Both the position numbers and the translations under genes were made by a program. Positions 1,316 to 35,925 of a DNA stretch of 43,661 nt are shown in pieces; position 1 is the stretch's first letter, and each line of letters opens with the position of its first letter. Where the stretch lies: contig JAKSIH010000023.1 of NCBI GenBank assembly GCA_024398935.1, positions 1 through 43,661 on the forward strand. The letters are read 5' to 3'. Source of the DNA: Fibrobacter sp. GTDB taxonomy: Bacteria > Fibrobacterota > Fibrobacteria > Fibrobacterales > Fibrobacteraceae. Below the pieces are notes generated by a model, which made no database searches, was not told the DNA's origin, and worked only from the letters and a program-made list of their open reading frames with translations.

Positions 1316-2063
1316 ACTTCACTCCTTTGCCACCAAAAAGGTCAAGTGCACTTCCGATGGTAAGATCTATTTTCCCGTCTGAAATTTCCTTGCAATGCTT
1401 CAAGTCTTCCAAAGACTTGGCGCCACCGGCATAGGTTACCGGAATGGGACTTTCCCTTGCCAGGAATCGGATCAGGTCGTCGTCCATCCCTTGCTGCTTT
1501 CCTTCTACATCTGCGGCGTGAACCAGAAATTCATCACAGTAGTTGGCCAATTCGGAAAGAGTTTCGGGTGTGATTTGAATGTCTATTAAGGTCTGCCAGC
1601 GGTTGATGGCGATACTCCACTGGGGATTGCCATCCTTGTCCTCGCCGGTTCGCTTACAGCTAAGATCCAGGATCAAATGGTCCTTGCCGACTGTTGCTAC
1701 CAGCCGGTTTAACCGGTCCATATCCAGCTTCCCTTCTGGGAAAATCCAGCTGGTTACGATGACATGGCTTGCTCCTGCATCCAGGTATTCCCGGGCATTG
1801 TCTGCGGTAATGCCTCCGCCGACCTGAAGTCCGCCGGGATAGGCCGCGAGGGCGGCCTTTGCGGCGTCCTCATTGCCCTTGCCTAGCATGATTACATGCC
1901 CGCCCCTGATATGGTCTTTCTTGTAGAGTTCCGCAAACCAGGCGGAGGACCTGTCCGTTTCAAAATTGGTCTTGAGGCCAGCGCCACTGTCAGACAGTGA
2001 ACTTCCGACGATTTGCTTGACCTTTCCGTCATGAAGGTCTATGCAGGGGCGAAACTTTGTCAT
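1281..2063 (-). CDS. hisA: Phosphoribosylformimino-AICAR ribotide isomerase, eukaryotic His6 type
   Basis: This enzyme isomerises ProFAR to PRFAR, the fourth step of histidine synthesis, in the cytosol. The 260-residue protein is a full TIM barrel opening with 'FRPCIDLHDGKVKQIVG'. It has the phosphate-binding 'LQVGGGITADNAREYLDAGA' and a second phosphate loop near 'VTYAGGAKSLEDL'. Long insertions such as 'CKRTGEDKDGNPQWSIAINR' are typical of the fungal and plant His6 form and not of ordinary bacterial HisA. I recall that the family description of this type mentions Fibrobacter as a bacterial holder, probably by transfer. Its ATG overlaps the TAA of the upstream gene by one base, and the glycosyltransferase start lies inside its 3' end. 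No other his gene is present. Confidence 0.9.
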   Translation of the reverse strand: MTKFRPCIDLHDGKVKQIVGSSLSDSGAGLKTNFETDRSSAWFAELYKKDHIRGGHVIMLGKGNEDAAKAALAAYPGGLQVGGGITADNAREYLDAGASHVIVTSWIFPEGKLDMDRLNRLVATVGKDHLILDLSCKRTGEDKDGNPQWSIAINRWQTLIDIQITPETLSELANYCDEFLVHAADVEGKQQGMDDDLIRFLARESPIPVTYAGGAKSLEDLKHCKEISDGKIDLTIGSALDLFGGKGVKYDECVKFNAEA

Positions 2064-3100
2064 TACTTAGCTCCTGTTACGCACCAGTCAATTTTCTTGC
2101 CGTGACTTCCGTCCGAGCGACCTCTATAGAAGAACACTTCGCCGGCGGTAGCCTTAAAGGCTTTCTTTGCAAACCAGCCATCTATCTTATCCAGGATGCT
2201 TGCCTTCTGGTAAGTCTTGTTTGCTGGGAACTGCAGGGTAGGGGTATCGTCCTGCCATTCGATGCTTAGGTTCCCCTTGGGAAATCCCTTGCCGTTATAG
2301 ATGGAGGTGTCGTCCTTGATAACCTTGGGCTTTACCACCTTGCTTCCCTCGGGGCCGTTGTAAAGGGCATAGCCCACCAGGTTCCCGTCAGAGGTTAGGG
2401 AAATGCGGCCTGCAAAAAGCGGGCTACGGGCGTTTGTACTGAAGTTGACTGAGCGAGCCGCAATGTCTGTGGCCTGGACCGTTTGCCAAATCTGATCCAT
2501 GTAGGCATAGCCCTTTACGGTTATAGTATCCTCGTTGTAGGCGATTTTGCCCGTAACGCGGCCATAGGGAATGTGGATATACTGCCCCATCTTTGCAGTG
2601 CCAACCGTCCATACGCCATTTCCCAGGGTCTTTCCCGGCTCTGCGGATTCAAAGGTGACATCCAGAAGGTATTTTCCGTCCTTGTCGGCGGAAAAGAGCA
2701 CGTGGTGACCTTTGCCGGGCTTGTGCTCCATCTTGTATTCGTTCTTGATGTTCAGGGTTGCGGTGGACTTGTCGGTCTTGAGTCGTTCCGGAGGGTACTG
2801 ACGACCTACAGTATAGGTTTTTCCCTTAAAGTTCCAGAAGGTCATGTCGCAGCCAAGCTTCGTTCCCGAGCCGGGTACATAAAGAATGGCGTAGTTTACG
2901 AATGCGCGGGTCCCATTGTCGAAAACAAACTGGTAACTCCAGGTCTCGTTAAATTCCTTGGAAGAAATGGGATGAGGCATGAAATCCTCTATGGTTGTCC
3001 CACGAGGACCGCCGCTCGGTGCGCTCACGCTGGCGGAGAATGCGAAGGTCACCGAAAATAGCAGGGTGACCAGAAATGTTTTAAGAACGAATTTCATCAT
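2063..3100 (-). CDS. Secreted Svf1/AttH (CrtC-like) lipocalin-fold protein
   Basis: The 345-residue protein begins with a signal peptide (hydrophobic 'FLVTLLFSVTFAFSASVS', cleavage near residue 25), so it should be exported. The mature part is all-beta in character. It carries features I associate with the AttH/CrtC and yeast Svf1 superfamily: 'NETWSYQFVFDNGTRAFVNY' near the front, and 'IHIPYGRVTGKIAY' followed by 'VKGYAYMDQIWQTVQATD' in the middle, matching the 'G.gY.DH.w' signature with Gln in place of His. Members bind or hydrate lipids or carotenoids; the ligand here is unknown. It overlaps hisA by one base (TAATG). ATGATG gives two possible starts three bases apart, and no ribosome site is visible before either. 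A TATAAT lies six bases upstream, so the message may be leaderless. Confidence 0.6.
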   Translation of the reverse strand: MMKFVLKTFLVTLLFSVTFAFSASVSAPSGGPRGTTIEDFMPHPISSKEFNETWSYQFVFDNGTRAFVNYAILYVPGSGTKLGCDMTFWNFKGKTYTVGRQYPPERLKTDKSTATLNIKNEYKMEHKPGKGHHVLFSADKDGKYLLDVTFESAEPGKTLGNGVWTVGTAKMGQYIHIPYGRVTGKIAYNEDTITVKGYAYMDQIWQTVQATDIAARSVNFSTNARSPLFAGRISLTSDGNLVGYALYNGPEGSKVVKPKVIKDDTSIYNGKGFPKGNLSIEWQDDTPTLQFPANKTYQKASILDKIDGWFAKKAFKATAGEVFFYRGRSDGSHGKKIDWCVTGAK

Positions 3101-3107
3101 GACAAAA

Positions 3108-3141
3108 TTATAAAAAGTCAGCTAAGGAAGGTAGCCGACTT
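3108..3141 (-). terminator. Hairpin terminator after the reductase gene
   Basis: On the minus strand a ten-pair stem (3115-3124 with 3132-3141, one G-T pair) is followed by TTTTTATAATTTT. It lies 45 bases after the reductase stop codon and just before the Svf1-like gene, so the same T/A-rich tail may double as that gene's -10 region. Confidence 0.6.
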
Positions 3142-3185
3142 TCTTATAAATGGGATGAATATCCGATTTGATGGATAAGTGCTTT

Positions 3186-4169
3186 TTAGAGACGGAGATC
3201 CTTGCCCATGCCCATCTTTAGTTCTATGCGGCGGCGTTGTACCATCTCGTTGAATAGGTCTGTAAGGCTGTCTTCCATACTGATCATGGGCTTCCAGCCG
3301 ATGTTCATAGCCTTGGCTGGGTCTCCGATGAGTAGGGGAATCTCGTTTCTACGCTCGTAGCCGGGATCGAATCGGAAGTCTACGCTTACATCGGCGATAT
3401 CCACCATCATTTCCACAACTTCTCGAATAGTGTAGGACTTTCCGCAGCAAAGGTTATAGACTTCACCGGATTCAGCCTGGTTGAGAATCTGGATCATGCC
3501 GCGAGCGACGTCACGTACATCAATAATGTCACGGCTTACATCAAGACTACCGGAGTAGATAATGGGTTCTGCGCCGTAATACTTTATCTTCACCAGCTGG
3601 TAGGCGATGGAAGGAATTACAAAGCGACGGCTATGGTGGGGACCGGTAAAATAGAAGGGCCGGACGAAAACAACATGCAAACCATTGGCGTTACGGAACT
3701 GGTTGCCTAGAAGTTCCATGCAGGCCTTGGATGTGGCGTAGGGTGTCAAAGGGTTTGGGGGATCAACTTCCTTATGGAGGTAGGTCAGGTTCCGGTCTGT
3801 ACGGCCATAGACTTCGCTGGAACTGAGCAGCATAATCTTTGCCCTGGGAGTGACCTGTCGAACGGCTTCCAGAAGGTTCTGGGTTCCCATCATGTTGATG
3901 TTCAGTGTCTCGTTGGGCTTCATATAGCTGATGCCAACGGAAGATTGACTTGCCAGATGGTAAATGTGTGTAGGATTTACCTTCTGGAGCATCTCGATGA
4001 CTTCCTTGGAATTTAACAAGTCGCCATTTAGATAGGTGACTCCTTCCACCTTTTGCCAGGGCTGAGGCTGTTCGTCACTGAAACTGTATAGTTCGTGGGC
4101 GGTTCCGCATAGGCTAGAGAGAATATGGTAACCAAGTGCGCCTGTTCCACCCGTAACAAGAATACTCAT
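3186..4169 (-). CDS. GDP-4-dehydro-6-deoxy-D-mannose reductase-like SDR enzyme
   Basis: This extended short-chain dehydrogenase probably reduces the 4-keto group of a nucleotide-linked 6-deoxy sugar for surface glycans. The N-terminal Rossmann motif is 'VTGGTGALGYH' (residues 5-15). The catalytic set is Ser-Ser-Ser in 'MLLSSSEVYG' and YxxxK in 'PYATSKACMELL'. 'RPFYFTGPHHSRRFVIPS' and 'YERRNEIPLLIGDPAKA' are much like Rmd proteins that make GDP-D-rhamnose. At 327 residues it is the normal length for the family. It starts two bases after the aroKB stop codon, so the two genes are co-transcribed. No GDP-mannose 4,6-dehydratase is present nearby. A related epimerase or dehydratase activity remains possible. 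Confidence 0.75.
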   Translation of the reverse strand: MSILVTGGTGALGYHILSSLCGTAHELYSFSDEQPQPWQKVEGVTYLNGDLLNSKEVIEMLQKVNPTHIYHLASQSSVGISYMKPNETLNINMMGTQNLLEAVRQVTPRAKIMLLSSSEVYGRTDRNLTYLHKEVDPPNPLTPYATSKACMELLGNQFRNANGLHVVFVRPFYFTGPHHSRRFVIPSIAYQLVKIKYYGAEPIIYSGSLDVSRDIIDVRDVARGMIQILNQAESGEVYNLCCGKSYTIREVVEMMVDIADVSVDFRFDPGYERRNEIPLLIGDPAKAMNIGWKPMISMEDSLTDLFNEMVQRRRIELKMGMGKDLRL

Positions 4170-9485: not shown

Positions 9486-9676
9486 AGACAGTGCGAGGTG
9501 AGAGTCGCTGAAAAATATAAAAAAGGATGTGTGAGGGCTTGAAGGGGAATTTTAGAATGCAAGTCAAATAAACTAACAAAATTACGATGATTTTGAATGG
9601 CTCTGTAATCTGCTCCGAGTCTGTTCTTGCGGTAAAATGAAAAAAGGCTTGGGGTGGAAAAGGGAATGTTCGTTCG

Positions 9677-9740
9677 CAGTCACCCTGCTTCGCAGGGCTG
9701 CTCACTCACCCTAAAGGGCTTATCGCTTCGCTCAAAGCTC
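9677..9740 (+). repeat. Hairpin module F, copy 1
   Basis: The module has an opening hairpin (CCCTGC-TTC-GCAGGG), the constant string CTCACCCTAAAGGGC, then a second stem GGGCTT paired with AAGCTC around TATCGCTTCGCTCA. It is matched by copy 2 at 9975-10039, where the stems differ on both sides. Confidence 0.65.
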
Positions 9741-9780
9741 ATTATTTTCCTTTTCGCACTTCGTGCATAAGAAAAATATT

Positions 9781-9856
9781 GACGCCTTCGGCGTCCGCTT
9801 GGTCGGCTCGGCAATAAAAATCTATAAATAGATTTTTACAGCACTCGCCTCGGGCG
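9781..9856 (+). repeat. 61-bp palindromic element R5 with leading hairpin
   Basis: A perfect leading hairpin (GACGCC-TTC-GGCGTC, 9781-9795) touches a 61-bp element (9796-9856). The element has weak outer arms (CGCTTG with CGGGCG), the constant internal motifs CTCGG and CACTCG, and a nine-pair inner stem (AAAAATCTA with TAGATTTTT). It has the same layout as the elements around valS, but its helices are quite different in sequence. Confidence 0.65.
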
Positions 9857-9905
9857 CTACTGCCGCCCCCTCTTCGAGGGTGCTTGATTCCCTTTCTCTA
9901 CTTCT

Positions 9906-9937
9906 AAAAAAAAGAAAAACACCACTTTAGTGGTGTT
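9906..9937 (-). terminator. Terminator following a partial tRNA 3' end
   Basis: Perfect eight-pair stem AACACCAC/GTGGTGTT with loop TTTA, then a T-rich tail on the minus strand. It sits just downstream of the 16-bp tRNA copy, as the functional terminator does for the real tRNA. Confidence 0.6.
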
Positions 9938-9947
9938 CTTTCTTTTT

Positions 9948-9963
9948 AGAGCGGGAAAAGGGA
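9948..9963 (-). pseudogene. 16-bp copy of the tRNA-Gly 3' end
   Basis: Identical to 10171-10186, which is the last part of the tRNA acceptor and T arm plus three flanking bases. The rest of a tRNA is absent. A shorter related string (GAAAAGGGAATG) recurs at about 9657-9668. Confidence 0.55.
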
Positions 9964-9974
9964 ATGATTCGTCG

Positions 9975-10039
9975 CCTGTCCCTGAGCTTCGCTCAGCAGG
10001 CTCCTCACCCTAAAGGGCCTATCGCTATGCTCAAGGTCC
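9975..10039 (+). repeat. Hairpin module F, copy 2
   Basis: The opening hairpin is CTGAGC-TTC-GCTCAG inside CCTG/CAGG, followed by CTCACCCTAAAGGGC. A second stem pairs GGGCCT with AGGTCC. A further long hairpin follows (CTGAATT/AATTCAG and GGGC/GCCC, about 10040-10082). Confidence 0.6.
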
Positions 10040-10134
10040 TGAATTCCACCCACGGGCTTCGCCCACGGTGTAATTCAGTCGCACCCTCGACCCCGAGGGG
10101 TCTTCTGTCCCGAGTCTGTTCTTGCGGTAAAATG

Positions 10135-29535: not shown

Positions 29536-29619
29536 GTACATTCGCTACGCTCATGTACCAAGTACTAGCCTCGGTCATAGACAAATGAATTTGTCTGCGA
29601 CACTCGGCTTACGTACTTG
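29536..29619 (+). repeat. Palindromic element R1 with leading hairpin
   Basis: A 23-bp hairpin (GTACAT/ATGTAC) touches a 61-bp element (29559-29619) bounded by CAAGTAC and GTACTTG. Inside are CTCGGTCAT, an eight-pair stem AGACAAAT/ATTTGTCT and CACTCGGC. It lies between two valS 3'-end copies. Confidence 0.85.
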
Positions 29620-29625
29620 TCGTTC

Positions 29626-30421
29626 TTACTTCAGTTCAGCCAAAGCCTTCTCATTCTTAGCAATGATATCCTGCTGAGTAGCCAGCTTGACACGTTCTGC
29701 GTTGACGACGGCTTCGGGAGCGCCAGAAACGAACTTCTCGTTGCTGAGCTTCTTTTCGATGCTAGCAGCAAAGCTCTTGGCCTTTTCGATTTCCTTTTCG
29801 AGGCGTGCGATTTCTGCAGCCGGGTCAAGGATACCTTCCAGCGGGATGAAGAGTTCGCCACCGGGCACAACGGCAGAGGCGCTGAACTTGGGCTTTGCGG
29901 CCTTCACGCCAACGGTAATGCTTTCGATGCCACCCAGTTCGGTGATGATGGCGAGGCATGCATTCACGGAAGCTTCGGTTGCTGCGTCGTCCACAGAAAC
30001 AACGGCCTTCAGCTTGGTTGCCGGAGAAACGCTATAACGGCCACGGACACCGCGAACGGCTTCCACCACGGCGAATGCCTGGTCGAAGGCGGCTTCGATA
30101 TCCTTGTTGATGAGAGATTCATCAGCGGTGGGCCAGGGGCGGCTGATCACCATTTCGGAACCCTGGAACAGGATGCTGTTCAGTTCTTCAGTGATGAAGG
30201 GCATTACCGGGTGGAGAAGGTCAAGGACGTTCTTCAGCACGTAGCTGAGGATTGCCATGGCGTTCTTCTTTTCGGCGTCCAAAGTTTCACGGTTGATCAC
30301 TGCCTTCTTGATTTGCGCAAGCGCCAAATGCTAGCCTCGGTCATGGACAAATATATTTGTCCGCGACACTCGGCTTGTGCATTTGTCAAGGTACTGGCTG
30401 CAAACGTCATCCCACACGAAG
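29626..30421 (-). pseudogene. Duplicated C-terminal part of valS, split by a palindromic element
   Basis: About 230 codons of the ValS C-terminus (from 'IKKAVINRETLDAEKKNAMA' to the stop codon). A tract of 572 bp (29681-30252) is identical to 33233-33804 of the intact gene. The two flanks differ clearly: several changes in the last 55 bases and in the 60 bases before the insertion. A 72-bp palindromic insertion at 30315-30386 brings an in-frame TAG. Beyond it about 35 more valS-like bases occur, then the match stops. There is no class I catalytic core, so it cannot charge tRNA. A TTG inside the insertion opens a 233-residue frame, but I see no ribosome site. Confidence 0.85.
30315..30386 (+). 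repeat. Palindromic element R2 inserted into the valS copy
   Basis: A short hairpin GCGC-AA-GCGC is followed by a 61-bp element (30325-30385) bounded by CAAATGC and GCATTTG, with CTCGGTCAT, the inner stem GGACAAAT/ATTTGTCC and CACTCGGC. The intact valS lacks exactly these 72 bases at the matching place (between CTTGATTT and CAAG). Confidence 0.9.
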
Positions 30422-30435
30422 AATTCTGTTTTTAT

Positions 30436-30567
30436 GGGCGTTCCCTTGCCTACGCAAGGTCGGGCTATATTTTAGGGGCTGCCGTCTGCGCTTCGCTTAT
30501 CGCCAACCTCCTAAAACGGAGCATTGCATCGCAAGTCTCCGCCCCAAGGGGTCACTATCCCTAACGC
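30436..30567 (-). repeat. Complex 132-bp inverted-repeat element
   Basis: On the minus strand it opens with GCGTTAGGGATAGTGACC and closes with TATAGCCCGACC and GGGAACGCCC, so the ends GCGTT and AACGC are inverted. Inside, TTTTAGG/CCTAAAA and CTTGCG/CGCAAG pair. I recall similar strings between genes in Bacteroidetes genomes, but I cannot verify this here. It starts right where the valS copy ends. Confidence 0.55.
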
Positions 30568-30573
30568 AAAACG

Positions 30574-31059
30574 CTAGTCATCTGCCTCGTTAGCCAGCTT
30601 GATAAAGTTGTCAAAAGCCTCGATTATGGAGTCTGCGTTTGTATAAGACTTACGGATAATCAAGAACGAATAGGACTCTGTTTCGCTAAAGATAATTTCT
30701 CTTGGGGTGATGGAAAATTCATTTTCGCCATACATACGGAACCAAGACTGAAAAAGTCTATGTCTTGCCCGTCCCTTACTGTCGGTCGATGTGTCGATGA
30801 ACGCAACTAAGGCACTGTCGAATTTGTCCAGGAAATTTCGAATAATCGAAACAATGGTATCTCTAGTATTACTTCCAGAAAGATCGTTTACATGATTATT
30901 TGGCTGTAAACCGCTTTCTACACGGTAGATGTCCACGCAGAAGATTGGGAAGTTGGCTTCAAATTGTGGCGTTAGATTATTGAAAATGACGGAAATTTTA
31001 TTTTGAGTTTCAGTCTCAAAATAAAAAGAGTCGCAATCTTCAATTACTGGATAAATCAC
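30574..31059 (-). CDS. DUF6169-like protein of unknown function
   Basis: A 161-residue soluble protein. 'ALVAFIDTSTDSKGRARHR' followed by 'LFQSWFRMYGENEF' and the end 'SIIEAFDNFIKLA' resemble proteins annotated DUF6169 in Bacteroidetes as I remember them. No function is established. The start is six bases after the stop of a 40-residue gene, so the two are co-translated. The codon use is more AT-rich than that of the neighbouring housekeeping genes, consistent with acquired DNA. It sits between duplicated pieces of valS, as cargo. Confidence 0.6.
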   Translation of the reverse strand: MIYPVIEDCDSFYFETETQNKISVIFNNLTPQFEANFPIFCVDIYRVESGLQPNNHVNDLSGSNTRDTIVSIIRNFLDKFDSALVAFIDTSTDSKGRARHRLFQSWFRMYGENEFSITPREIIFSETESYSFLIIRKSYTNADSIIEAFDNFIKLANEADD

Positions 31060-31065
31060 AAAAAA

Positions 31066-31188
31066 CTACTTTGCCGGGACAAAGCCCTTCAAAGTACCAT
31101 TGGCCTTGAAGTATTCTGCCCGCTGTTTCTTTTCGGCAAGAATATCCTTCAAAAGTTTCTTTGCTTCGGATGTAGTAAACTGCTTCAT
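31066..31188 (-). CDS. 40-residue basic small protein upstream of the DUF6169-like gene
   Basis: The peptide begins 'MKQFTTSEAKKLLKDILAEK' and is rich in Lys, with an amphipathic helix-like front. GAGGAT lies about six bases before the ATG at 31188, so I prefer it to the longer frame opening at 31272. The close spacing to the next gene suggests a two-gene unit. I do not recognise it. An antitoxin-like or regulatory role is only a guess. Confidence 0.55.
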   Translation of the reverse strand: MKQFTTSEAKKLLKDILAEKKQRAEYFKANGTLKGFVPAK

Positions 31189-31308
31189 AGCATTATCCTC
31201 ACTTATAATATAGGTTTTTAGTCGTAGATTTGTCAATAAGACTTTGAATGTGCTGTGTGAAATGAATTTCAAAGTCTGTATTTAGAATGGTAATGCATAG
31301 GCGTATTA

Positions 31309-31340
31309 TTTGTTTTTTGTTCAAAATGGAGCTATATTTG
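31309..31340 (+). promoter_or_regulatory. Promoter-like pair in the 31.2-31.66 kb spacer
   Basis: TTTG at 31309, 20 bases, TATATTTG at 31333-31340. It matches the -33 TTTG / -7 TAnnTTTG pattern. It faces the structured element at 31481 and the zinc-ribbon gene. The rest of the spacer (31189-31659) holds no credible gene. Confidence 0.45.
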
Positions 31341-31470
31341 TAAGGTAAAATAGAATAAGAGGCGAATTATAAGATTTTAAAAATCTGTTGACATATTTGA
31401 GCATTTGCTCCACTCTCCAATTGAAATCGGCAAAATTATCAATGCAAGAGATTCGGTGCGAACGCTCACG

Positions 31471-31558
31471 TCCCTATGGGGCGTGGGTCGTTTGTGTTTA
31501 TCTTGCATGGGCTTTGCCGAGCCTCAATTGGGTAAACCAAATGAGCCCACGCTTTTTT
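31471..31558 (+). ncRNA. Candidate structured RNA ending in a terminator-like stem
   Basis: A small hairpin precedes a large closed structure: GCGTGGG (31481-31487) pairs with CCCACGC (31546-31552), GTTTG pairs with CAAAT, GTTTA with TAAAC, and an inner GGGCT with AGCCT. Six T follow the closing stem. It lies about 130 bases downstream of the promoter-like pair. It could equally be a repeat element that carries a terminator. Confidence 0.4.
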
Positions 31559-31659
31559 ATATGCAGAATTTGGGATTCCTTGGTTTTTGAGAAGGTGCTC
31601 GTTTGTTGGTGGATTCTTCGCCATGAGATTGAATGAAAAATAAAACCAAGGAGAAAAAT

Positions 31660-32454
31660 ATGTTTTGTAGAAAATGTGGCTGTCGGGTGCAGGATGATTC
31701 TGATTTTTGTCCGAAATGTGGAGAGAAATTAGCTGATGAAAGCATTGATGCTAAAAATGAAAAACTTTCTGCAATAGGTGCTGAATCCTCGAATTCGGAA
31801 AAGAAATCTGCTGGATGGGTGGCTCCCGCCCTTGTGGTTTGTGCTATTGCTTACGTAATATTGAAATTGGCTGGATGTATGGATGTTCCTGGTGAAAACA
31901 CATCTTCCCGGTCTACGCCGTCTGTACAAACAGTTTCTGTAAAAAAGGAACCCCCTCCTTATACTCTAGAAGATGCTTTAAAAGAACTTTCGTGGTATGA
32001 AAATCGTTTGTCAGAGTATGTAAAGATGAAATCAATGGATTTTGCAACAGCAATAAAGGCTGCTGGAGAAATGAAAATTATGTGGACTGAAATACAAGCT
32101 GTTTATGACAAGAAACACAATGAAGAACAAGTGAGAAATGCTTATTTGAAATTGCAAAAAGAACTTCCTAAAGCGCAAAAAAATATTTTTCCTAAAATTC
32201 GTAAGGCATGGGTAAAAGGTATCACTGAGGATATGGCTAGAAAAAATGTTCGTATCTCTTGCCGTAACACTTCTTGTAATGAAATTAATTTGAAATCACC
32301 TGAATTTTTAAGCATAGCAGTTGTTCAAACGGTGATGGATTCATTTGATTCTGACTTTAATAAATTAAGAGTGAAAAAAATTTGGTTTCATGATACGTTT
32401 GGTTCTGGGACAAATGTTACTAGGCAAGATGTTAGTGATGGTGCGTTGGAATGA
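31660..32454 (+). CDS. Zinc-ribbon membrane protein, apparently frameshifted near its end
   Basis: The ATG at 31660 has AAGGAG six bases upstream and gives a zinc ribbon 'FCRKCGCRVQDDSDFCPKCG' (two C-x2-C pairs). One membrane helix follows ('WVAPALVVCAIAYVILKLAG'), then a Lys/Glu-rich helical region and a C-terminal domain. The frame stops at 32454 after 'DVSDGALE'. The +1 frame from the same place reads on for about 35 residues ('MVRWNENARVRYVKGSADDS', then 'YSFALSETKSLEIKSL') to 32548 and looks like a natural end. I infer a one-base shift near 32430-32445. The gene is AT-rich. It is not assigned to a family beyond the zinc ribbon. Confidence 0.7.
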   Translation: MFCRKCGCRVQDDSDFCPKCGEKLADESIDAKNEKLSAIGAESSNSEKKSAGWVAPALVVCAIAYVILKLAGCMDVPGENTSSRSTPSVQTVSVKKEPPPYTLEDALKELSWYENRLSEYVKMKSMDFATAIKAAGEMKIMWTEIQAVYDKKHNEEQVRNAYLKLQKELPKAQKNIFPKIRKAWVKGITEDMARKNVRISCRNTSCNEINLKSPEFLSIAVVQTVMDSFDSDFNKLRVKKIWFHDTFGSGTNVTRQDVSDGALE

Positions 32455-32562
32455 AAATGCTAGGGTTCGGTATGTAAAAGGGAGTGCTGATGATTCATAC
32501 TCTTTTGCATTAAGCGAGACCAAAAGTCTGGAAATTAAAAGTCTTTAGAACAAAGGGTAAAA

Positions 32563-32595
32563 AAAGGACTTGAGAAAAATCTCAAGTCCTTTTGT
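32563..32595 (+). terminator. Terminator of the zinc-ribbon gene
   Basis: Perfect twelve-pair stem AAAGGACTTGAG/CTCAAGTCCTTT with loop AAAAAT. It lies just after the extended +1 frame ends at 32548, which fits that longer product. Confidence 0.8.
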
Positions 32596-32639
32596 AATAC
32601 TAGATCCTGCTTCAAGGAACCTAAGAATTGTAGGGCAAC

Positions 32640-32780
32640 AAGTTGCTGACAATTCTATATCGCTTCGCTCGAATGACTCCTTGAATGCCAGATCCCCGTT
32701 CAAGCCGGGGATGACAACCTGAGGTTTGCCGGTATGACTCGCTGCATTGTCATTCCCGCGAAAGCGGGAATCTGAAATTA
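32640..32780. repeat. Cluster of GTCATTC-type palindromes
   Basis: CCCCG-TTCAAGC-CGGGG followed by ATGACA, and further on GTCATTCCCGCGAAAGCGGG. The latter contains ATTCCC-(8)-GGGAAT, the pattern of the Neisseria dRS3 repeat. No gene is present here. Confidence 0.6.
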
Positions 32781-32890
32781 CTACAATTCTTCCAAGGCCT
32801 TTTGGTTCTTAGCAATAATATCTTGCTGGGTTGCGAGCTTGGTGCGTTCAGCATTGACAACGGCTTCCGGAGCGCCGGAAACGAACTTTT
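32781..32890 (-). pseudogene. Divergent copy of the valS 3' end
   Basis: It translates as 'KFVSGAPEAVVNAER', then Thr, then 'KLATQQDIIAKNQKALEEL' and stop. The protein is nearly that of ValS, but the DNA differs at roughly one base in five, mostly silent. It is therefore an older or foreign valS end, not a recent duplicate of the neighbouring gene. It starts directly at the leading hairpin of R3. Confidence 0.75.
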
Positions 32891-32974
32891 GTATGCTCGC
32901 TTCGCTCCCATACCAAATGCTGGCCTCGGTCATGTCCATGCAAGCATGGCCGCGACTCTCGGCCTAGGCATTTG
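32891..32974 (+). repeat. Palindromic element R3 with leading hairpin
   Basis: A 23-bp hairpin (GTATG/CATAC) touches a 61-bp element (32914-32974) with ends CAAATGC/GCATTTG and CTCGGTCAT. The inner stem is CCATGC-AA-GCATGG, followed by CTCGGCC. The inner stem differs entirely from R1, R2 and R4 yet pairs perfectly. Confidence 0.85.
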
Positions 32975-33045
32975 CACTTTGTGCAACACCCTTCGGCTCG
33001 GATATACGAAAACAAGTTTTCGTGCATCATTCGCCTTACGGGTGT
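32974..33045 (+). repeat. Palindromic element R6 with leading hairpin
   Basis: The hairpin GCAC-TTT-GTGC is followed by a 60-bp element (32986-33045) with ends ACACCC/GGGTGT. It contains CTCGGATAT, a perfect eight-pair inner stem (ACGAAAAC/GTTTTCGT), and CATTCGCC. It stands in tandem with R3. Confidence 0.75.
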
Positions 33046-33087
33046 TTGTCTTGCTGAGAAATTATCGCAAGTCCTGCAGAGCAGTTT

Positions 33088-33171
33088 GTACATTCGCTAC
33101 GCTCATGTACCAAGTACTAGCCTCGGTCATGGACAAATGAATTTGTCCGCGACACTCGGCTTACGTACTTG
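33088..33171 (+). repeat. Palindromic element R4 with leading hairpin, next to the valS stop codon
   Basis: Same layout and nearly the same sequence as R1. The inner stem is GGACAAAT/ATTTGTCC where R1 has AGACAAAT/ATTTGTCT. It ends six bases beyond the valS stop codon. Confidence 0.85.
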
Positions 33172-33177
33172 TCATTC

Positions 33178-35925
33178 TTACTTCAACTCAGCTAGAGCCT
33201 TTTCGTTCTTAGCAATGATATCTTGCTGAGTTGCCAGCTTGACACGTTCTGCGTTGACGACGGCTTCGGGAGCGCCAGAAACGAACTTCTCGTTGCTGAG
33301 CTTCTTTTCGATGCTAGCAGCAAAGCTCTTGGCCTTTTCGATTTCCTTTTCGAGGCGTGCGATTTCTGCAGCCGGGTCAAGGATACCTTCCAGCGGGATG
33401 AAGAGTTCGCCACCGGGCACAACGGCAGAGGCGCTGAACTTGGGCTTTGCGGCCTTCACGCCAACGGTAATGCTTTCGATGCCACCCAGTTCGGTGATGA
33501 TGGCGAGGCATGCATTCACGGAAGCTTCGGTTGCTGCGTCGTCCACAGAAACAACGGCCTTCAGCTTGGTTGCCGGAGAAACGCTATAACGGCCACGGAC
33601 ACCGCGAACGGCTTCCACCACGGCGAATGCCTGGTCGAAGGCGGCTTCGATATCCTTGTTGATGAGAGATTCATCAGCGGTGGGCCAGGGGCGGCTGATC
33701 ACCATTTCGGAACCCTGGAACAGGATGCTGTTCAGTTCTTCAGTGATGAAGGGCATTACCGGGTGGAGAAGGTCAAGGACGTTCTTCAGCACGTAGCTGA
33801 GGATGGCCATGGCGTTCTTCTTTTCGGCGGTCAAAGTTTCGCTGTTGATCACAGCCTTCTTGATTTCAAGATACTGGCTGCAAACGTCATCCCACACGAA
33901 GCGGTAGAGGAAACCTGCAAGTTCTGCGAAGTGGTATTCTTCCAGCATGCGGGTTGCATCCTTGATGGTGGTCTGCAGGCGAGAAAGGATCCACTTGTCT
34001 TCCAGTGCGAACAAATTCTTGTCCATGGGAAGTTCGGCGGCAAGGGCGCCAGCCTGTTCCAGCTGCGGGTAGAGGAAGCGGCAAGCGTTCCAAATCTTGT
34101 TGGAGAAGTTACGGCCGATTTCGAACTTTTCAGAAGTGTTGATTTCGGTACCGTCTTCCTGCTTTTCCTTCTTCACCGGCAGACGAACGTCCTGGTTGTC
34201 GGTGCAGAGGCTTGCCATCACAAAGCGGAGAGCGTCGGTACCGTACTTGCGTTCGATGTCCATGGGGTCCACGCCGTTACCCTTGGACTTACTCATGGTC
34301 ATGCCATTGCCGTCCAGGATCTTCGGGTGGATGTAAACGGTGTGGAACGGGATCGTACCCATGTTTTCCTGGGAGAACAGCACCATGCGAGCCACCCAGA
34401 GGGTGATGATGTCGCGGCTGGTCACCAGCACGGAAGTGGGGTAGTACTTCTTAAGAGTGTCGGTGTTTTCCGGCCAACCCATGGTAGAGTGGGGCCAGAG
34501 ACCACTGGAGAACCAGGTGTCCAGAACGTCGTCTTCCTGCTTGAGAACGTGACCCGGAACTGCGTCTTCTGCAAGGTTTTCTTCCTGAGAGCAGACCAGG
34601 TAGCCGCCGTTTTCTGCCTTGTAGAAGAAGATGTCTTCACGGTTGCCGAATACGGCCTTCAGTTCTTCTTCGCTTGCGTCGGTGTGCCAGATAGGAATGC
34701 GGTGGCCCCACCAGAGCTGACGGCTAATGCACCAGTCGCGCTTTTCGCCCAGCCAGTCAAGGTACTTGTTGGCGTAACGTTCGGGGATAATCTTGATTTC
34801 ACCGGACTTCACGGCGTTCATTGCGTTTTCGGCAAGAACGTCCATCTTCACGAACCACTGGTCGCTGAGGTACGGTTCAATAACAGTCTTACTACGGTCG
34901 GAGTGGCCCACATCCATTTCGTGGTCTTCCACCTTGATCAGGAGGCCAAGTTCTTCGAGGCCTGCCACAACGGCGTCGCGGGCAGCCTGGCCCTTAAGGC
35001 CCTGGAACTTGCCGGCGTTTTCATTCAGGGAGCCGTCGTCGTTCATGATGTTGATCATGGGGAGCTTGTGACGGAGGCCGGTAGCATAGTCGTTGGGGTC
35101 GTGAGCCGGAGTCACCTTCACGGAACCAGTACCGAAGTCCTTGTCCACGAGGATGGCGTCTGCAATCACGGGAATTTCGCGATCAACGAAGGGAACCTTC
35201 AGCATCTTGCCGATGAACTGTGCATAGCGTTCGTCGCTGGGGTGCACGGCAAGAGCGGTATCGCCCATGATGGTTTCCGGACGGGTGGTGGAAACGGGAA
35301 TGAAGCCCGAACCATCGGCCAGAGGATACTTGAAGGTCCAGAAGTGACCCTTCACATGTTCGTAATAGATTTCGTCGTCGGCAACGGCAGTCTGGAGCTT
35401 GGTGTCCCAGTTCACCAGACGCTTACCGCGGTAGATCAAGCCCTTCTTGAACAGGTTGAAAAAAGCGTGGCGAACAGCCTTGGCGCAGATGGGGTCCAAG
35501 GTGAAGCGCTGACGGCTCCAGTCGCAGCTCACGCCCAAGCTCTTCAGCTGCTTGGTGATGCGGGCTTCGTATTCTTCCTTCCACTTCCAGATGCGTTCCA
35601 CCAGAGCGTCGCGGCCAATGTCGTGACGGGTCTTGTGTTCGTCCTGGAACAAGCGCTTTTCCACAACAGCCTGGGTTGCGATACCGGCGTGGTCCGTACC
35701 CGGAATCCACAAAGTGTCGCGGCCAGTCTTACGGCGGTAGCGTACCAAAATATCCTGAAGGGTGTCGTTCAAGGCGTGGCCCAGGTGCAGGGCGCCGGTC
35801 ACGTTAGGAGGCGGAATGACGACAGAGAACGGTTCGCCCTTACCGCTAGGTGCAAAGCTATTTTTGTCAGCCCAGGTCTGGTGCCAGCGGGCTTCAACTT
35901 CTGAAGAATTATAACGTGTTTCCAT
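33178..35925 (-). CDS. valS: Valyl-tRNA synthetase
   Basis: It charges tRNA-Val with valine. The 915-residue class I synthetase has the HIGH motif as 'PPNVTGALHLGHALNDT' near residue 45, the editing (CP1) domain with 'STTRPETIMGDTALAVHP', 'WFSSGLWPHSTMGWPE', the KMSKS motif as 'MTMSKSKGNGVDP', the anticodon-binding helices, and the C-terminal coiled-coil arm ('EIARLEKEIEKAKSFAASIE'). It is complete and of normal bacterial length. The ATG at 35925 follows an AT-rich leader. Its 3' end is duplicated three more times downstream, and palindromic element R4 begins right after the stop. Confidence 0.97.
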   Translation of the reverse strand: METRYNSSEVEARWHQTWADKNSFAPSGKGEPFSVVIPPPNVTGALHLGHALNDTLQDILVRYRRKTGRDTLWIPGTDHAGIATQAVVEKRLFQDEHKTRHDIGRDALVERIWKWKEEYEARITKQLKSLGVSCDWSRQRFTLDPICAKAVRHAFFNLFKKGLIYRGKRLVNWDTKLQTAVADDEIYYEHVKGHFWTFKYPLADGSGFIPVSTTRPETIMGDTALAVHPSDERYAQFIGKMLKVPFVDREIPVIADAILVDKDFGTGSVKVTPAHDPNDYATGLRHKLPMINIMNDDGSLNENAGKFQGLKGQAARDAVVAGLEELGLLIKVEDHEMDVGHSDRSKTVIEPYLSDQWFVKMDVLAENAMNAVKSGEIKIIPERYANKYLDWLGEKRDWCISRQLWWGHRIPIWHTDASEEELKAVFGNREDIFFYKAENGGYLVCSQEENLAEDAVPGHVLKQEDDVLDTWFSSGLWPHSTMGWPENTDTLKKYYPTSVLVTSRDIITLWVARMVLFSQENMGTIPFHTVYIHPKILDGNGMTMSKSKGNGVDPMDIERKYGTDALRFVMASLCTDNQDVRLPVKKEKQEDGTEINTSEKFEIGRNFSNKIWNACRFLYPQLEQAGALAAELPMDKNLFALEDKWILSRLQTTIKDATRMLEEYHFAELAGFLYRFVWDDVCSQYLEIKKAVINSETLTAEKKNAMAILSYVLKNVLDLLHPVMPFITEELNSILFQGSEMVISRPWPTADESLINKDIEAAFDQAFAVVEAVRGVRGRYSVSPATKLKAVVSVDDAATEASVNACLAIITELGGIESITVGVKAAKPKFSASAVVPGGELFIPLEGILDPAAEIARLEKEIEKAKSFAASIEKKLSNEKFVSGAPEAVVNAERVKLATQQDIIAKNEKALAELK

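Follow-up and report, generated by a model that had tools for sequence, protein, structure and literature searches.

Mobile palindromes with covarying helices in Fibrobacter and some of its close relatives

In a stretch of 43,661 nucleotides from a Fibrobacter sp. (contig JAKSIH010000023.1 of assembly GCA_024398935.1; hereafter the window, meaning the whole stretch), six short palindromes, R1 to R6, are found, all in the same orientation. An earlier note, written from the sequence alone, had placed all six correctly and described them as structured palindromes with changing helices and fixed internal motifs. This raises the question of what these elements are, whether they move and, if so, by which means.

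The palindromes are about 80 letters long and are scattered, in dozens of copies, through the genomes of Fibrobacter and some close relatives. They are genuine mobile elements, spread across the bacterial family and with helices that covary, and the phenomenon is larger than first described. Whereas the usual mobile palindromes are defined by their sequence, the Fibrobacter family keeps its fold and frees the letters of its stems. We see it as a variant of the kind formed by repetitive extragenic palindromic (REP) sequences and IS200-type elements; the mechanism proposed below we regard as about an even call.

Occurrence and fold of the family

A pattern fitted to the six copies occurred 6 times in the window, versus 0.03 times in shuffles, and the gapped motif pattern was present at 22 places in the window's genome and at none when read backwards. 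A covariance model was built from 21 aligned rows (20 distinct, one place having been entered twice). The search of Fibrobacter genomes proposed in the earlier note found the palindrome in all 37 that were scanned; it was also present in 7 of 11 genomes from sister genera of the family; outside the family 1 genome out of 52 matched, with a single weak match (E = 2.4e-4). These sister-genus matches overturned a restriction to the genus, which a first survey (37 of 37 genomes inside it, 0 of 23 outside), sharing many genomes with the later one, had suggested. The window's genome holds at least 72 matches at E ≤0.01 among the best 150 of 749 first-look candidates scored, and copy numbers per genome are lower bounds throughout. 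After removal of 9 matches to places already counted in overlapping loci and of 4 partial or weak matches, 144 model matches gave 131 copies, not all independent because of orthologous loci and arrays; 127 of them served for the statistics on arms, pairs and tags, the 4 copies that deviate from the core motif being omitted. In one sister-genus genome, ten copies lie within about 2.2 kb (positions 1900-4060 of locus L284, genome G110). Thirteen viral contigs fit the bare pattern, but the six reported by the model scored at most 23.5 bits and were treated as chance, so that carriage by phages was not retained.

Each unit consists, from left to right, of hairpin 1, arm A', the core hairpin and arm A2, which pairs with arm A'. 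As had been proposed from the six copies, the helices change on both sides. In a model-fitted alignment of 92 distinct rows, a fit that favours structure, 86.5% of the cells were paired and 16 of 16 pairs varied on both sides (mean 13.7 in shuffles, 8 of 500 of which reached 16); 394 cells were compensated, against 139.8 (SD 8.9) in shuffles. The covariation score was 0.625, as compared with 0.206 after shuffling and with 0.06-0.17 when the partners were slid by 1-3 columns. The MAFFT alignment, in which the conservation of the motif partly reflects how the rows were chosen, namely by a motif pattern, agreed (77 compensated cells versus 32.4; score 0.559 versus 0.188). Further pair types in the model-fitted alignment showed no excess (43 versus 47.0 in shuffles). 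Owing to the varying linker lengths, the outermost four pairs reached only 58.7% pairing when the register was held fixed; once the linkers were left free, an A'-A2 stem of at least 5 bp was present in 74 of the 127 copies, versus 86 of 2,540 swapped pairs.

Two blocks of letters inside the core are unpaired and nearly invariant. Counted in the model-fitted alignment, gaps excluded, because the core motif forces TC/TC in the 127-copy set, these were T (89/89) and C (88/89) on the left facing T and C (both 91/91) on the right, and A (91/91) and T (90/91) opposite G (86/92) and C (87/92). The claim that the two motifs do not pair thus held for TC opposite TC and for AT opposite GC. It did not hold for the motifs as a whole, which are flanked by GGC/GCC and share a covarying pair between the final G of the left TCG and base 2 of the right NYTC (G-C 77, A-T 9, G-T 2, other 1). 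Likewise, the right-hand motif CACTCG or CATTCG is carried by every window copy except R3, which has CTCTCG. Covariation together with the nearly invariant TC/TC and AT/GC supports the idea of a selected fold with fixed internal-loop letters.

Other parts of the unit are more variable. The loop of hairpin 1 reads CTTCG in 28 and CTACG in 11 of 108 cases. A variant devoid of hairpin 1 is found at L041, L192:1996, L202, L206, L023, L025 and L199:7352, with a left end resembling CAGAAA or GAAGAAA that in several cases directly follows a run of T. At a ferredoxin gene (L249-L264), arrays of one and two units share hairpin 1 and the arms and differ in their inner stems between genomes. We considered that inner stems might be swapped in a recombination reaction, but homologous recombination or array turnover would equally produce differing inner stems, and we make no such claim.

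Precise inserts and the copies of the window

Mobility was assessed with nine pairs of filled and empty sites, in which inserts of 67-92 bp are present on one side and the flanks abut in the empty partner. The pairs were picked because an empty partner was visible, their anchors were set by eye, and substitutions in the partner can move a junction by 1-2 bases. They are as follows:

R2, 72 bp; empty partner, intact valS
R6, 74 bp; empty partner, L082
Two inserts in a carB 3' fragment, 92 and 67 bp; empty partner, intact carB
L217:2678, 80 bp; empty partner, intact carB
Three inserts in one unnamed gene fragment, 80 bp each; filled and empty between L211 and L213
Insert within an IS200 leader in genome G020 (L066; L077 reads alike), 74 bp; empty partner, L069

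The inserts follow a T in 9 of 9 cases and their last base is T in 8 of 9; they end 10-12 nt past the core and start with hairpin 1 in all but L199:7352. No target duplication is consistent among the nine, of which one has a repeat of 7 nt and another one of 5 nt. The length of 61 bp first given to the palindromes therefore falls short of the inserted unit, as R2 and R6 indicate, and the small preceding hairpin, taken at first for separate free sequence, belongs to the element, since the insert starts there and ends 12 nt after the core. In the population of 117 distinct arms, position +12 is T in 77% and position +13 is C in 50%, while beyond that no base exceeds 38%. Three loci of the window's genome (L032, L033 and L039) share an identical core, which suggests recent spread.

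When their ends are set by these rules, all six copies of the window are preceded by TT and finish with T. Their positions, and those of the valS sequences around them, are:

29536..29620, + strand: R1, whole unit (hairpin 1, arm A', core hairpin, arm A2), left end at the foot of hairpin 1 and right end by the 12-nt rule
30315..30386, + strand: R2, whole unit, inside the duplicated valS fragment; its flanks abut in intact valS, the empty site
32891..32973, + strand: R3, whole unit up to the point of interruption by R6
32974..33047, + strand: R6, whole unit, inside the right end of R3; empty site in L082 (Fibrobacter succinogenes RUG10152)
33088..33172, + strand: R4, whole unit, antisense to valS, 5 nt from the stop codon of intact valS
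9781..9861, + strand: R5, whole unit, at a distance of 20 kb, ends determined as in R1
33178..35925, - strand: intact valS (valyl-tRNA synthetase; Pfam tRNA-synt_1, Anticodon_1, Val_tRNA-synt_C), host of R4 and empty site for R2
29626..30421, - strand: duplicated 3' fragment of valS, comprising its last ~720 nt; R2 splits it, and R1 lies past its stop codon
32778..32888, - strand: final 110 nt of valS in a third copy, to the left of R3

The comparison with the empty site thus places R6 within the right end of R3, and R1 ends 5 nt before the reverse-strand stop codon of the duplicated fragment. Between positions 29626 and 33171 the 3' end of valS is present three times, the copies being separated by 2.3 kb that encode a DUF6169 protein and a zinc-ribbon protein. 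The nearest named valS, with a 99% identical protein, is that of Fibrobacter sp. Horse_feces15, in agreement with the genus guessed in the earlier note. R5 sits between two imperfect direct repeats of about 80 nt (9656-10040).

Just past the valS stop codon an element is found in the window and in L080, L138, L082 and L088; L081 also has one, of weaker score. In the five loci named first, another valS tail comes next, of about 24 nt in L080, at window R1 and, in decayed form, at R4, of 41 nt in L138 and L082, and of 110 nt in L088 and at window R3. The tails were identified by eye, BLAST showing them only in L138 (39 nt, 84.6%) and in the window. At the start of valS there is no copy in the window, one in L080 and two in L214, with a repeat of about 10 nt.

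Placement at gene 3' ends

Genes were called by codon usage, and a copy was scored as near a stop codon when the stop lay within 15 nt of its right end or inside it. The right-hand neighbour shows its 3' end to the element in 88 of 123 copies and is near by its stop codon in 39 of 123; on the left the neighbour shows its 3' end in 71 of 122 copies, but only 2 of 122 are near a stop codon. A gene start is near the right end in 12 of 123 copies and near the left end in 9 of 122. In 35 distinct near-stop loci, the stop codon overlaps the last 12 nt of the element in 27 and is wholly inside it in 23. The copies thus favour gene 3' ends in one orientation. At the ferredoxin gene (like carB, named from Pfam), which was matched in 41 genomes, 6 of 30 examined loci have the element immediately after the stop codon, and there the protein ends as it does in 20 of 24 loci devoid of the element.

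This placement might mean that the palindrome is a structured RNA of mRNA 3' ends, involved in processing, stability or ribosome stalling, which spread and was then retained, the functional strand being the one in sense with the upstream gene. Besides the copies lying right at stop codons in one orientation, the strand preference fits this explanation, as RNA parameters make the + strand of the core the more stable in only 17 of 131 copies and DNA parameters in only 18 of 131 (34 and 35 of 131, respectively, for the whole unit). On the gene-sense strand TC/TC becomes GA/GA, and tandem G-A pairs are stable. If the element were under selection as RNA, one of the two wobble classes should be frequent. 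Yet, among 1,524 core pairs (12 in each of 127 copies), 1,447 were Watson-Crick, 7 G-T, 8 A-C and 62 other. G-T is thus as rare as A-C, neither strand tolerating G-U, and the constraint resembles one on DNA or on templated copying, which argues against RNA. Furthermore, a stop codon lies within 40 nt on the relevant, right-hand side in only 45 of 123 copies, copies are also present in duplicated gene fragments and in an IS200, and no curated Rfam family matches the palindrome. The structured RNA mentioned in the earlier note is therefore disfavoured by the lack of wobble pairs and by the precise mobility, and we consider this explanation unlikely. An insertion might also affect the mRNA of the gene next to it.

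Only 5 of 131 copies are inside a predicted gene. In two of these the reading frame is open through the copy, without a Pfam match at L024 (1501-1561) and with a DUF5915 match spanning the copy at L228 (2504-2560); of the other three, one is at a gene start (L080), one lies in a carB fragment (L199), and in the third the frame reaches a synthetase domain only past the element (L195). In-frame insertion of mobile palindromes in open genes is known from the Rickettsia palindromic elements, which at least these two open copies may resemble; unlike there, in-gene copies are exceptional in Fibrobacter.

Proposed mechanism and candidate enzymes

We propose, with as much reason for doubt as for belief, that the palindrome is a miniature IS200/IS605-like element moved as folded single-stranded DNA by a Y1/HUH transposase in trans. 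The palindrome has inserted precisely, just after a T; the folded single strand would be cut and joined by a Y1/HUH-type (IS200/IS605-like) enzyme supplied in trans, and arm A', at the 5' foot of the core hairpin, is predicted to act as the guide. The proposal builds on the precise inserts, the pairing of A' with A2, the constant fold with variable stems and the excess at gene 3' ends in one orientation, and it supposes a single-strand intermediate, an enzyme of this class and target selection by A'.

PATEs are known miniature derivatives of the IS200/IS605 family. The Fibrobacter palindrome resembles this family and its derivatives in apparently inserting 3' of a short motif, mostly without duplication although some sites show repeats, in having hairpins at both ends and in carrying, at the 5' foot of the right hairpin, a guide that pairs with the right terminus (the A'-A2 stem described above). 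It differs in that its ends are not those of the IS200 copies of the same genus, and in that the guide is short (about 5-8 nt), varies between copies and was not seen 5' of the left hairpin. At 12 resident IS200 loci, 10 left ends were found, 7 of them preceded by at least 5 T, and 4 right ends, all 4 with a run of T; this gives a hint that the junctions of the palindrome and of resident IS200 are alike. Pairing of a guide with the terminus is the logic of IS200/IS605 elements, as set out in PMC6006769.

The left flank of the element (A) resembles arm A2 beyond chance expectation. At least 6 identities in 8 were observed in 11 of 35 single copies, versus 3.1% in swaps (0 of 2,000 permutations), and the longest common word was at least 5 nt in 18 of 53 single copies, versus 4.6% in swaps. 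This likeness could result from target choice by A' or from target duplication. In the latter case the palindrome would be the remnant of a conventional transposon, a MITE, whose short and variable target duplication is seen as the A/A2 repeats; the common words, a 6-nt repeat at the ferredoxin site and repeats of 7 and about 10 nt at copies devoid of hairpin 1 would all be accounted for. Clean filled and empty pairs without any repeat exist, and because of them we favour target choice, judging from the sequences. Moreover, A' is complementary to A2 inside the inserted DNA itself, which a target duplication leaves unexplained, and a MITE appears improbable.

Wherever target and arm A2 are alike, an insertion at a stop codon would restore that codon, which would account for the tolerance of copies at gene ends. 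A bolder version of the proposal, which we find doubtful, is that of a self-guided miniature single-strand transposon. The variable A' would pair both with the right end of its own copy and with the target, so that each copy would bear its own target address and each insertion would re-make the cut site, and also the stop codon of the gene entered, recognition being by shape and by the two fixed mismatch blocks. If the arm does address the target, the palindrome would be a natural, very small, re-addressable unit of DNA insertion. As the palindrome is widespread in one bacterial family and offers clean sites before and after insertion, REP-like movement and placement at stop codons become testable.

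Several observations weigh against the proposed mechanism. Y1_Tnp was present in 12 of 41 genomes in the first survey, which included the window's, and in 11 of 21 in the second, hence in 23 of 62, and a mobilising enzyme is therefore unproven. None was found in the window's genome (82.6% complete), and the 39 of 62 genomes in which it is absent include G070 and G096, both 100% complete in 9 contigs and holding at least 54 copies each. The Y1 transposase that the earlier note suggested looking for is thus not a constant companion of the palindrome. At none of the 18 Y1 loci searched, all from the first survey, are palindromes the ends of the insertion sequence; only two of these loci, both in G020, hold a palindrome, and there it is the insert in the 5' leader. 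No enzyme could be tied to the family in a search that covered Y1 and a few other types, tyrosine and serine recombinases and other transposase families lying outside it. Regarding the guide, several clean pairs (L213:1959, L211:2016, L217:2678) show no likeness between A and A2, and a role of A' in choosing the target is therefore not general. Finally, there are direct repeats such as a duplicating transposon would leave, of 7 nt at L199:7352, 5 nt near L199:7629, about 10 nt at the start of valS (L080, L214) and 6 nt at the ferredoxin site, while the 3' end of valS has a repeated tail whose length is about 24, 41 or 110 nt.

Alternatively, the copies might be relics of an ordinary REP family, its RAYT having disappeared or escaped detection. 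REPs are frequent at gene 3' ends, and like REP, REPIN and BIME elements mobilised by RAYT (TnpAREP), the palindromes are short, mobile imperfect hairpins in many copies that lie mostly outside genes; sporadic Y1 genes would also be in keeping with this. To that extent the likeness to REP-type elements drawn in the earlier note stands, as an analogy. It goes no further: at the foot of the hairpin the REP tag was seen in few of the 127 copies (GTAG in 4, CGTC in 1), no RAYT with palindrome ends was present at the 18 Y1 loci searched, and no RAYT-type gene could be tied to the family. Unlike in REPs, the stem letters are not conserved, every stem pair varying on both sides instead of repeating one sequence, and there are an extra hairpin and pairing arms. 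The core that is identical at three loci belongs to a genome in which no Y1 was detected, although that genome is only 82.6% complete. We find this explanation quite unlikely, although a CGTC class of REPs has been reported to occur without a dedicated transposase (PMC3733652).

Integron attC sites are palindromic and conserved in fold rather than in sequence, with the box consensus RYYYAAC/GTTRRRY. The palindromes share with them a kept fold and a free sequence, and they could accordingly be sites for a tyrosine recombinase, the valS and carB fragments being captured cassettes. The common orientation of the six window copies and the duplicated gene 3' ends beside copies would agree with this. 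Yet the boxes occur on either strand in 0 of 127 copies, there are no cassettes, and the inserts of 67-92 bp contain the palindrome only, which largely refutes this explanation, integrases having been outside the search; we hold it to be highly improbable. The statement that no named family fits has thus withstood comparison with all those tested, Rfam included. In the literature on palindromes, repeats, insertion sequences, noncoding RNA and REPs of Fibrobacter or Fibrobacteres, no title or abstract among those listed describes the family, most subscription papers and the supplement on S85 insertion sequences lying outside this survey.

With respect to carB, the window's genome has an intact gene followed by an extra 3' fragment, and several carB stretches are found in G024 (L199, 1-2915 and 6700-7849; L217).

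Other enzymes were also considered as a universal mobiliser. IS110 (PF02371) was found in 4 of 41 genomes, and IS91-type Y2 (PF04986) in 0 of 41, a result that carries no information as the control likewise gave no match. A reverse transcriptase (RVT_1, PF00078) was present in 12 of 41 genomes, among them the window's. Y1, reverse transcriptase and IS110 are each sporadic across genomes and were rejected in this role. One reverse transcriptase gene (G000:C67:36242-36940) lies about 230 nt from a copy of the palindrome.

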